DNA of 64,000 nucleotides. It comes from Methanoregulaceae archaeon (GTDB lineage: Bacteria; Armatimonadota; Fimbriimonadia; Fimbriimonadales; Fimbriimonadaceae). The translations under genes were made by a program, and so were the position numbers. The notes under the pieces were generated by a model. That model searched no databases and had not been told where the DNA came from. It saw nothing but the letters and a program-made list of their open reading frames with translations. The DNA lies in the NCBI GenBank assembly GCA_020850325.1, contig JADZEW010000001.1, forward strand, positions 124,001 to 188,000, read 5' to 3'. This document shows positions 46,686-53,650 of the stretch, piece after piece; within the stretch, counting starts at the first letter, position 1; each line of letters begins with the position of its first letter.

Positions 46686-47024
46686 CTACGGCAAGACGTG
46701 CGGGTAGATTCCGCCGACTTGCGAGCACGTCGGATCGGTCCCGATCACATTCACAGTATAGGTTCCGTTGGCGGGACAAGACGGCGCCCGACGAAGATAG
46801 GTCGGCGTGATGTCATTCATGTCGCACGGATCGCCGTTGTTCAGGCTAAGCTCTCCGGCCCGCATCTCCTTGGCCTCGTCGATCTTCTTCAGATTCGATA
46901 AGCACGTGCGGTGGCGCGAGACTTCACGAGACTGTAAGAATTGGGGTACGGCGACGCTCATAAGCACCCCAATGATCAATACGACGATCATGATTTCAAC
47001 GAGCGTAAATCCACGCTTCTTCAT
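46686..47024 (-). CDS. Type IV pilin-like protein
   Basis: A 112-residue protein with a textbook prepilin leader: MKKRG/FTLVEIMIVVLIIGVLMSVAVPQF, cleavage after Gly5, Glu at mature position 5. The mature part is short and has four Cys (RTCLS, DPCD, PSCP, PTCS), probably two disulfides. GAGGGG is placed before the ATG at 47024. It is an orphan: no pilus assembly or prepilin peptidase gene is near. It could be a minor pilin, a pseudopilin or a competence pilin. Confidence 0.85.
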   Translation of the reverse strand: MKKRGFTLVEIMIVVLIIGVLMSVAVPQFLQSREVSRHRTCLSNLKKIDEAKEMRAGELSLNNGDPCDMNDITPTYLRRAPSCPANGTYTVNVIGTDPTCSQVGGIYPHVLP

Positions 47025-47082
47025 TGTTCGAACCCCTCGAAAGAGTTGTTCCATGAGTGGCGTCGAAATCGGGTGGGACGAA

Positions 47083-50700: not shown

Positions 50701-51201
50701 ATGAAGCGTTTTGCAGCAGTCGTCGCCGTTTCCGGCGTCATCGCGGCGGCCATGGCCGCCACCACCATCATCGGCGCGTATGGCCAGGGGCGAGCCACCA
50801 ACGCCGCGGGAATGCGGTCAGAGTTCCACTTCGAAGCGCGAAAAGCCAATAGGGACGGACAGATTCGAGTCGGTGGTTTCGCGCGATTCATCGCCTTCGG
50901 CGGAACGAGCACCGTGCCCCAGAGCTGGGGAATCTATATGCCCGAAGTCCGCGGCGTAGGCAAGTCAGGCAACGTATGTCAGTTTGGCGGCCCCGCTCAG
51001 ATGCAGGTGAGGAATGGCGCTCACTATCACCTCGTCCGCGGCCATGCCGTGTTCAACGTCGCCGATCGGCGTAATGCGAACACCTCGACCGAGCCGGATC
51101 GAATCAGCGTTCGGTTTACGGATCTGGCTAACCGCACGTGGGATTACAGCGGCCTGGTCCACCAGGGCGACATCGTCGTGTTCGAGCGAATCGAGCAGTA
51201 G
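50701..51201 (+). CDS. Secreted protein of unknown function
   Basis: A 166-residue protein with a signal peptide (MKRFAAVVAVSGVIAAAMAATTIIGAYG) and a mature part rich in Gly, Phe and His: FHFEARKANRDGQIRVGGFARFIAF, NGAHYHLVRGHAVFNVADRRN and YSGLVHQGDIVVFERIE. It looks all-beta. GAGGG lies before the ATG. No family is recognised. It stands alone, divergent from dgt and convergent with the cysteine-rich operon. Confidence 0.65.
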   Translation: MKRFAAVVAVSGVIAAAMAATTIIGAYGQGRATNAAGMRSEFHFEARKANRDGQIRVGGFARFIAFGGTSTVPQSWGIYMPEVRGVGKSGNVCQFGGPAQMQVRNGAHYHLVRGHAVFNVADRRNANTSTEPDRISVRFTDLANRTWDYSGLVHQGDIVVFERIEQ

Positions 51202-51220
51202 TCCTGCGACAGCATAATGG

Positions 51221-51246
51221 ACCCCCGGCCAATTTTGGTCGGGGGT
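51221..51246. terminator. Hairpin between convergent transcripts
   Basis: ACCCCCGGCC-AATTTT-GGTCGGGGGT, a near-perfect 10-bp stem with one G-T pair. It lacks a long T-run on either side. It is 20 nt past the stop of the + strand gene and 14 nt past the stop of the minus-strand operon, and may serve both. Confidence 0.6.
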
Positions 51247-51259
51247 TCACATCGGGCCT

Positions 51260-51664
51260 TTAGGGGCACTGATGCTGTATCAAGTTATCGCCGCAGTCGC
51301 CGTGAGTAGCCCAGTTGACAGGACAGTTACCCGGCGTAGGGTTACCTGACATCACACCGGTCCACTTCCTGAATCCTGCTGGGGAGCAGGTCGACAACGG
51401 TGAGCAAATCCACACCGAGCAGAAGCCACGGCAGCAGCCATCTTCACCGGACAGATCCGCACACATATTCGAAGAGGGTCCAACCTGTTGTGGAGTACAC
51501 CCACTCGGACATGAGTTAGAAGGTGAGTAGTACGTGACGTTGCACAAACCCGCGAATCCCCACACGTTGGCGCCCGCCCACGCGAAGTTGTACAGTGAGC
51601 CAAGCAACAGGACCGTTGCAAGGACTACCGTCGACGTCTTACCACTGCCAGACCGGCTTCGCAT
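51260..51664 (-). CDS. Secreted 12-cysteine protein, last gene of redox operon
   Basis: A 134-residue protein with signal peptide (TVVLATVLLLGSLYNFAWA). The mature ~100 residues contain 12 Cys, an even number, in clusters CPSGC, GCCRGFCSVWIC, STC, NCPV, DCG and QCP, with several Trp. I know no exact family. The number and crowding of Cys, plus co-expression with two thioredoxin-fold proteins, recall the methylamine dehydrogenase light chain (six disulfides, Trp-derived cofactor) matured with MauD, but MauE and the heavy chain are missing, so this is only an analogy. The ATG at 51664 follows AAGG and overlaps the preceding gene by 26 nt. Confidence 0.6.
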   Translation of the reverse strand: MRSRSGSGKTSTVVLATVLLLGSLYNFAWAGANVWGFAGLCNVTYYSPSNSCPSGCTPQQVGPSSNMCADLSGEDGCCRGFCSVWICSPLSTCSPAGFRKWTGVMSGNPTPGNCPVNWATHGDCGDNLIQHQCP

Positions 51665-52202
51665 GATCCTTAACCTCAATCTTTTCCACCTTACCGCTCA
51701 GTCTCAGAACAAGAACTGTGTAACCTGACTCTCCCGCAATCTGCGCACCTGAAGAAGGATTATAGTCGACGAGGATCGGTAGTTCCTCTCCCCGGATCGC
51801 AAACCATTGCCCCATATCTTGTTTGCGAATCTGCGATGCCGTTTCGCGGGACCAGTACATCTGAGCGAAATGGTTGGGGGTTCCATCATAGAGTTCGTTA
51901 GGGCTTTTAACTCGGAAGGTTGCTTCGCCGTCGGCTAGACTCCAAGGGTTCCCAGGCTTCGCCAACTCCAAGAGCATCTCGGGCAATCCGGCGTCGCGAA
52001 AGTTGGTTCGTTCGGAAACCGGCAGTGGTCGGTGGGTCTTTCGATACACCTGCAGTTTCTCGCCAATGGAAGTGAGTTTCCCACGTGCGGCAGCGATGTC
52101 GTAGACTCTCGTGGGTTGCATCCCCTGGAATGCCATCAGGGACAGGGCGATGGCCGTGCCGATAAGAACGGCGCAGCACAGTTGAATTGACTTGATGTTC
52201 AT
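51639..52202 (-). CDS. Pseudopilin-like membrane-anchored protein of unknown function
   Basis: A 187-residue protein with one N-terminal hydrophobic helix (LCCAVLIGTAIALSLMAF) and then ARGKLTSIGEKLQVYRKTHRPLP, which resembles the helix and turn of GspG-type pseudopilins; the remainder (RVKSPNELYDGTP, GYTVLVLRLSGKVEKIEVKDH) is beta-like. A prepilin cleavage motif is lacking (no G/FTLIE), so processing as a pilin is doubtful. It overlaps the preceding thioredoxin-like gene by ATGA and the cysteine-rich gene by 26 nt, third gene of a tight four-gene operon. Confidence 0.55.
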   Translation of the reverse strand: MNIKSIQLCCAVLIGTAIALSLMAFQGMQPTRVYDIAAARGKLTSIGEKLQVYRKTHRPLPVSERTNFRDAGLPEMLLELAKPGNPWSLADGEATFRVKSPNELYDGTPNHFAQMYWSRETASQIRKQDMGQWFAIRGEELPILVDYNPSSGAQIAGESGYTVLVLRLSGKVEKIEVKDHAKPVWQW

Positions 52203-52696
52203 GGGTGTTGCTCCTTTGGAGGCTCGATTGCTCTCATGTTTGCTTCCGCAACTGCGGTAGCCAAGGCCATATCAGAGGAATGCTGAATGTAAGTAAGACG
52301 GCCATCTCTTACACGGTACACGCGAGGCAGATAGTAGGCATTGAGGCGCCTGACGATGTCGAGGGAGTGATCGAGAATCAACTCAGCACCAGGAACACGC
52401 CCCTTGAAGTTATGGGGCTCGGCAGTGACAACGACAACGGTCAGACTCTGCTTTCTAGCAATCCGGGACAGTTCCGCCAGGAGTAGATCATTGCAGGAAC
52501 AGGCCGAGATGAGGACAATTAGGCCCGTTTTGGGAAGACCCTGAAACTGGTTCAAGTCGGTTCCAAGGGGTAAGTCCTTTCGACTGGCAGTCCGTGGTGA
52601 TCGCTCTGACTCATGCGATCTTTGACGAGCGACGATCGACCCAGCGAACACGTTGTAGGCCAACAAGACATATAGGAGTGATGCCGAACGCGTCAT
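52199..52696 (-). CDS. Thioredoxin-fold exported protein with CSC motif
   Basis: A 165-residue protein with an N-terminal signal or anchor (SLLYVLLAYNVFAGSIVA). The layout fits a TlpA/MauD-like thioredoxin fold: strand GLIVLISACSCNDLLLAELSRIA with Cys-x-Cys in place of CxxC, strand LTVVVVTAEP, and YYLPRVYRVRDGRLTYIQ with the cis-Pro position. It may therefore have altered redox or isomerase properties. The ATG at 52696 lies 1 nt after the stop of the lipoprotein gene. Upstream in-frame sequence to 52855 overlaps that gene and is rejected. Confidence 0.55.
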   Translation of the reverse strand: MTRSASLLYVLLAYNVFAGSIVARQRSHESERSPRTASRKDLPLGTDLNQFQGLPKTGLIVLISACSCNDLLLAELSRIARKQSLTVVVVTAEPHNFKGRVPGAELILDHSLDIVRRLNAYYLPRVYRVRDGRLTYIQHSSDMALATAVAEANMRAIEPPKEQHP

Positions 52697-52697
52697 C

Positions 52698-53111
52698 CTA
52701 GTTCTTACTCCTTTCCTCGATGGGCAAGTCGAGATGTTGGATGGAACCTCTACTGAATCGCACCCGCTTTGGACAAGACAAGAGACCAAAGTGGAGTGAG
52801 AGCCTAGAGCCAGGGTCACTGTAGGCGACGCCGCCCCACGCGGTCCTCTGCACAAACTTTCTCATCTCAGTCACCGGGAGTTGACCCAAGAGAACGATGT
52901 TGGTGTCGCCACGACGTGAGACCCCGCTAGCTGCGTCAACGCACGGCTGGCAACCGCACACGACGAGGCAAGTAGCGCCGTCGAGTACGCTTGCGGACAC
53001 ATTCGGACCCTTGATTCCGTCAAGGTTGAACTGAGCGAGCACATCGTCTGACGGGCCACCGCACCCCACGAACAGTACCCATCCCAAGGCAAGTGCCCCA
53101 GCACTCCTCAT
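52698..53111 (-). CDS. Lipoprotein with thioredoxin-like CQPC motif
   Basis: A 137-residue protein. The leader ends in a lipobox (LFVGC, Cys18), so it should be a lipoprotein. The strand TCLVVCG runs into CQPC at the start of a helix, the thioredoxin arrangement, followed by TNIVLLGQLPVTEMRKFV. The domain is short. It is the first gene of the redox operon. TATAAT lies 7 nt before the ATG, so it is leaderless, and a perfect palindrome lies upstream (53145-53170). Confidence 0.55.
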   Translation of the reverse strand: MRSAGALALGWVLFVGCGGPSDDVLAQFNLDGIKGPNVSASVLDGATCLVVCGCQPCVDAASGVSRRGDTNIVLLGQLPVTEMRKFVQRTAWGGVAYSDPGSRLSLHFGLLSCPKRVRFSRGSIQHLDLPIEERSKN

Positions 53112-53118
53112 AGATCAC

Positions 53119-53124
53119 ATTATA
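53119..53124 (-). promoter_or_regulatory. Consensus -10 element of the redox operon
   Basis: TATAAT on the minus strand ends 7 nt before the ATG at 53111. The transcription start would fall at the start codon. Confidence 0.6.
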
Positions 53125-53144
53125 AGCGCATTTATGGAGAACTA

Positions 53145-53170
53145 TGCGACAAATTTCTCAAAATGTCGCA
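53145..53170. promoter_or_regulatory. Operator-like palindrome upstream of the redox operon
   Basis: TGCGACA (53145-53151) and TGTCGCA (53164-53170) are perfect inverted arms with a 12-bp A/T-rich centre, 20-45 bp upstream of the -10 element, where an activator or a repressor over the -35 region would bind. The arms are 19 bp apart, close to two helical turns. Confidence 0.55.
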
Positions 53171-53240
53171 AGTACTCTAGATGGCCTGGCCCGTACGGAC
53201 GCATCCATGCATCACGGGGGCACCACGAGAAGCGGGTGTA

Positions 53241-53650
53241 CTAAGAGTCTCGTTGAGCAGCGCGAATGCGCGCCAAAGCGCGCTCGATCTCGGCGGTCGC
53301 CTCTTGGCTGTTCATCGCCGCGTCCTCGCCACGCAAAGCGCGACGAGCGCGCTCAAGCCGCTCTTCTTCCTGACGGATGTCGATTTCCGACGCCCGAGAA
53401 GCCGAGTCGGCGAGAATGGTCAACCGCTCACCGCTGATCTCGGCAAAACCGCCCGAAACCGCGATGTGGTGGCGCTGACCCTTGCCGTCGAGGTACTCGA
53501 CGATGCCCGGCCGCAGGGCCGAAACCATCGGCAGGTGACCGGCCATAACGCCGAAGTAGCCTTCGATGCCCGGGGCGACAACGGCTTGGGCTCGGTCTTC
53601 AACGACCGAGCGGTCCGGTGCAACGATCGAAAGTTCGAAGTCTTTGGCCA

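Follow-up and report, generated by a model that had tools for sequence, protein, structure and literature searches.

A dedicated oxidoreductase encoded beside a cysteine-rich product is known from the maturation of methylamine dehydrogenase and from gene clusters in Bacteroidetes, where small cysteine-rich secreted proteins (NVEALA, DUF6520) have TlpA and MauE neighbours. We know of no pilin in these Bacteroidetes clusters. The locus described here lies in a 64,000-nt stretch of DNA, which we call the window, from a draft genome of 3.5 Mb (98% complete) in the Fimbriimonadaceae lineage of the Armatimonadota. It resembles the Bacteroidetes clusters in having a small exported cysteine-rich product near a gene for a thioredoxin-like protein, but differs in that the product does not match their models: 34 homologues compared with Pfam and NCBIfam gave no family match, one of them reaching DUF6520 at E 0.21.

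The four-gene block in the window

Four minus-strand genes, named A to D, adjoin or overlap one another, with a spacing of +1 nt between A and B and overlaps of 4 nt between B and C and of 26 nt between C and D, exactly as an earlier note on this DNA had given them. Gene A (52698–53111) encodes a lipoprotein with a near-canonical lipobox (LFVGC) and the motif CGCQPC, in line with the lipoprotein with CQPC that the note had proposed. Gene B (52199–52696) encodes a putative membrane-anchored TlpA-class thioredoxin-fold protein with the active-site motif CSC, and gene C (51639–52202) a membrane-anchored pilin-like protein without a prepilin signal. The product of gene D (51260–51664), previously described as a small exported protein with 12 cysteines, has a Sec signal peptide and the cysteine pattern of its family, and we count 12 cysteines in its 134 aa. 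Compared with Pfam and NCBIfam one at a time, none of the window proteins A to D matched a family.

On one side of the block the ATP synthase genes (atpD, atpC) end, and on the other lies a convergent hypothetical gene. A strong hairpin with a 14-bp stem lies between D and the convergent gene (51218–51249; the fold of 51196–51262 is predicted at -32.7 kcal/mol) and could possibly act as a bidirectional terminator of D and of the plus-strand gene at 50701–51201. The hairpin was not picked up in a scan for terminators with a T-run, and the promoter scan found no sigma-70-like site. The plus-strand gene encodes a conserved exported protein of no known family, and a congener retains it in the corresponding position (L194:5943-6443).

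The G+C content of 51260–53111 is 0.555, compared with 0.614 for the whole window, and only 0.6% of sliding windows of the block's size have a G+C content this low. GC3 of the block genes is 0.56–0.65, as opposed to 0.72–0.83 for most neighbouring genes, confirming that the block is less G+C-rich than its surroundings. In the congener G001, the flanks align at 89–92% identity and are separated by 72 bp, rather than by the ~2,045 bp found in the window genome, indicating an insertion or deletion of a ~2.05-kb block (51206–53250) between close species. The congener thus has these flanks without the block, and of the two possible events, gain or loss, the low G+C favours gain. Acquisition, as suggested earlier, is thus supported by both the base composition and the empty site.

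Genes A and B and the cysteine-rich product

A profile built from 51 B proteins matched the PDB entries 3kh7 (E 1.4e-5), 2h1b (E 2e-4) and 1kng (E 2.3e-4), and its matches to solved DsbE, ResA and CycY aligned the active-site cysteines as well as the cis-Pro stretch. Judged by these profile matches, B is a thioredoxin-fold protein of the TlpA/DsbE/ResA class, which supports the earlier description of a TlpA-like protein with CSC; MauD-like, the other label given to it, is not borne out as a family assignment, as NCBIfam gave no match. Redoxin was matched by 14 of the 51 members, and most members lack a good match to any curated Pfam family. Like TlpA, ResA, DsbE (CcmG) and CycY, B appears to be membrane-tethered and extracytoplasmic; unlike them, most B homologues have GxCxxC without the usual WC, the window protein having CxC instead, and some keep a single active-site cysteine (SPC in L035, L037 and L113). 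In place of cytochrome c genes, the genetic link of B is to a pilin and a cysteine-rich protein.

For A, the fold assignment is less firm. Comparison of the A and B profiles with hhalign gave a probability of 91% (E 1.1e-6), and the best thioredoxin-fold match in the PDB was MPT53 at E 0.025; a thioredoxin-like fold is therefore probable. Consequently, the earlier claim of two thioredoxin-fold proteins stands for B and becomes a probable assignment for A. The protein carries a CxCxxC motif and, immediately preceding the predicted cis-Pro, an extra cysteine (LLSCP). Structure models of A and D, calculated from two sequences each, the window's and that of Fimbriimonadaceae bacterium isolate LS_FP_2_bin.42 (a relative whose cassette sequence matches that of G068, of the same family), were too poor to be relied on, with a mean pLDDT of 38, and a Foldseek search with this model of A returned nothing below E 1. 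Besides the window, about nine loci have an A homologue immediately preceding B. Among the B-profile hits, ten have A upstream of B, nine of these also having C and D; all but one of the A-bearing hits fall on one side of the B tree, the exception coming from outside the order.

Members of the D family consist of a signal peptide followed by ~80–100 residues with 8–14 cysteines. Nine cysteine positions are near-invariant and little else is conserved, the mean column identity being ~17%. The cysteine count is even in 30 of 34 homologues (a chance of ~3e-6 if the sequences were independent), histidines are few and no CxxCH was found among the homologues, features that point to cysteines ending up in disulfides. 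The even counts would also suit the dedicated oxidative folding pathway that the earlier note had put forward. A role for the cassette in cytochrome maturation was rejected, given that D has no CxxCH.

The earlier note named methylamine dehydrogenase as the closest known logic. A likeness of D to its light chain, with D as a quinone-cofactor subunit that needs a MauD-like B, would suit the 12 cysteines in ~100 residues and the thioredoxin partner. This analogy fails. None of the 34 D homologues matched PF02975, nor did 21 genomes, where the control genomes gave no match either. The D profile matched no chain in the PDB, although methylamine dehydrogenase light chains are present there, and the 34 homologues have no conserved Trp pair, the best Trp columns being filled in 13/34 and 7/34. 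The heavy-chain gene is absent among the window's four genes. The likeness to the methylamine dehydrogenase system (MauD, MauE, light chain PF02975) is limited to a thioredoxin-fold helper beside a 12-Cys exported product, and with no sequence match for D, no Trp pair and no MauD assignment, maturation of this kind is very improbable.

Conservation and subtypes of the B-C-D cassette

Genome searches for the cassette covered Armatimonadota. Within the order, the B profile picked up 70 places, spread over 43 of 113 genomes. Extended to the whole phylum, the search detected B in 89 of 291 genomes, where some of the weaker matches are probably general thioredoxins. In the loci of relatives found with B and C, reading showed the two genes together and a cysteine-rich ORF after C in most. 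Gene order was counted at loci picked by B alone, comprising the 70 in the order and 20 fetched from outside it. Both C and D accompany 71 of the 94 B frame hits, which after removal of three double counts corresponds to ~68 cassettes among 90 loci; by the same rule, 15 of the 20 fetched loci, from several families, have the order B-C-D. Using a strict definition (a secreted ORF in which 90 residues contain at least 8 Cys), a cysteine-rich ORF follows 41 of 65 C genes, compared with 2 of 646 control ORFs of at least 250 codons (Fisher p ~4e-47, a value not to be taken literally as the loci are related). This comparison led us to reject chance ORF overlap as the origin of the arrangement.

From the gene order, the cysteine pattern and the conservation of D, we conclude that B-C-D is a real cassette, distributed throughout the phylum Armatimonadota and apparently undescribed. 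The literature searched contained no description of a thioredoxin–pilin–disulfide-rich cassette, an absence that does not prove novelty. Rather than being missing from relatives, which would have counted against a conserved unit, the gene set recurs, and one genome often holds several copies. The four-gene operon proposed earlier holds as a unit, but A-B-C-D turned out to be a rarer subtype of a common B-C-D core that is often extended by a further gene, E. Two C-D pairs follow one B in L152 (G183:C5) and L153 (G146:C322), as if the C-D part had been duplicated in tandem.

In the common form, C is of the prepilin type and B has CxxC; A is usually missing and E often present. Gene E follows D in 38 of the 71 cassette hits (e.g. 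L034:8794-9459) and encodes a protein with one membrane helix and ~180 further residues, with weak matches to NTF2-like families (DUF3887, TcaA_5th). Across the order, a window-type C stands beside B in five genomes (the window genome, G068, G093, G042 and G044). These represent the window subtype, with A present, CxC in B and a C without the prepilin signal, and no E was found in any of the five. In G042 (L027, 8517-9114, minus strand), B looks broken into two frames by a frameshift, and a search for D after it found none; the copy may be a decaying four-gene subtype, or may reflect a sequencing error.

The window's own genome additionally contains a common-form cassette (G000:C35, near 68.7 kb), which it shares with the congener. 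Between the two species, the mature D of this second cassette is 97% identical with dN/dS of 0.017, and B is 71% identical. D is thus under strong purifying selection, as expected of a conserved functional product, and within the genus is not a fast-diversifying toxin. This bears on the rival reading of D as a disulfide-rich toxin or bacteriocin, with C aiding its release and A, B and E serving as maturation or immunity factors. Such a role would suit a small, secreted, cysteine-rich protein, as well as the patchy distribution of the cassette, its low G+C and the insertion or deletion between congeners, but selection on D is purifying rather than diversifying, and no immunity-like gene is constant, as E is present in only about half of the cassette hits. 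We therefore regard a toxin as quite unlikely.

The pilin-like protein and a proposed role for the cassette

The window C protein has an N-terminal membrane segment but lacks the prepilin motif (xxTLxE) before the hydrophobic helix. In other cassettes, C homologues of the prepilin type match GspG and geopilin in profile comparisons, and comparison of the window-type C set with an independent prepilin set (hhalign) gave 96.9% and E 1.3e-10. On the evidence of this alignment, window C is homologous to true prepilins despite the lost signal, and the earlier reading of a membrane-anchored pseudopilin-like protein is upheld. Compared with type IV pilins and type II pseudopilins (GspG, PulG, geopilin, DUF1559-type), most cassette C proteins share the type III prepilin signal and add a conserved C-terminal domain, D-x-N-H ... 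LxLRLDGxV; window-type C differs in having no such signal. Elsewhere in the window, a separate short prepilin gene (46686–47054, minus strand; PF07963, E 3.1e-8) was seen, with no B or D noticed alongside. Lone window-type C genes without B or D occur in L030 (G011), L031 (G016:C8, near 96 kb) and L032 (G025:C2, near 131 kb), in each case close to genes of the ribosome or of translation (rplC-like, rplX-like and fusA-like by reading).

The prepilin signal in C of 65 of the 71 cassette hits makes it conceivable that D serves at the surface or in adhesion as a component of type IV pili, at the tip or in the lattice, with B as a folding helper only and C as the cognate minor pilin. The genome paper on Fimbriimonas ginsengisoli (PMC4072686) describes a non-motile organism with fimbriae, counts 79 PulG-like genes and 13 AhpC/TSA proteins, and proposes attachment; its matching passages do not mention a thioredoxin–pilin–cysteine-rich arrangement. 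Considering that the cassette persists where window-type C has lost the prepilin signal, a pilus adhesin of this kind, with its putative C-D complex, appears rather unlikely.

The reading that we prefer, held with about as much doubt as confidence, is that the cassette serves to produce, fold and present a single product, the small extracytoplasmic and disulfide-rich protein D. After export by Sec, the 8–14 cysteines of D would become paired, with B, joined by the lipoprotein A in the window subtype, forming or isomerising the disulfides. The oxidising power for B and A would probably come from the cell's VKOR-type enzyme. The pilin or pseudopilin C would be the partner that binds, carries, exports, anchors or displays D. 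In most cassettes, C as a true prepilin could join a type IV pilus or a type II pseudopilus; in the window subtype, it would have turned into a plain membrane-anchored protein. Both the redox direction and the role of D as substrate of A and B are inferred.

VKOR was found in all 21 genomes tested (the window genome and 20 relatives), and the window's own genome has a gene for a DsbD/CcdA-type carrier, so both redox directions are available. ResA, CcmG and TlpA usually act as reductants, so B might carry out reduction instead of oxidation. In that case, B and A would keep the D cysteines reduced for metal binding while C anchors the complex, following the logic of a metallothionein or copper chaperone; the DsbD/CcdA-type carrier could supply electrons, and the CxCxxC of A together with its cysteine before cis-Pro would form a possible metal site. 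The even cysteine counts, few histidines and lack of CxxCH in D suit disulfides better, as does the universal presence of VKOR in the relatives tested, and we consider the reductive alternative unlikely. Conversely, the B proteins with a single active-site cysteine and the window C without a prepilin signal count against the oxidative model.

Candidates for the final role of D are adhesion, envelope structure or capture of something outside the cell. We tentatively suggest, as a possibility well short of even, that the cassettes are phylum-wide pilus-linked systems in which each cassette's own thioredoxin enzyme and pilin mature and present a private disulfide-rich protein. The cassette joins type IV pilin assembly, extracytoplasmic disulfide chemistry and small disulfide-rich proteins, which are usually studied apart, in a compact unit that recurs throughout a phylum of which very few members have been cultured. 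As the libraries searched contain no entry for the D family, many 'hypothetical' proteins could now be named and tested, and the signal-less C of the window subtype offers a natural experiment on the need for polymerisation. If the suggestion is true, these bacteria would have a previously undescribed kind of pilus, decorated with disulfide-rich modules that are interchangeable.
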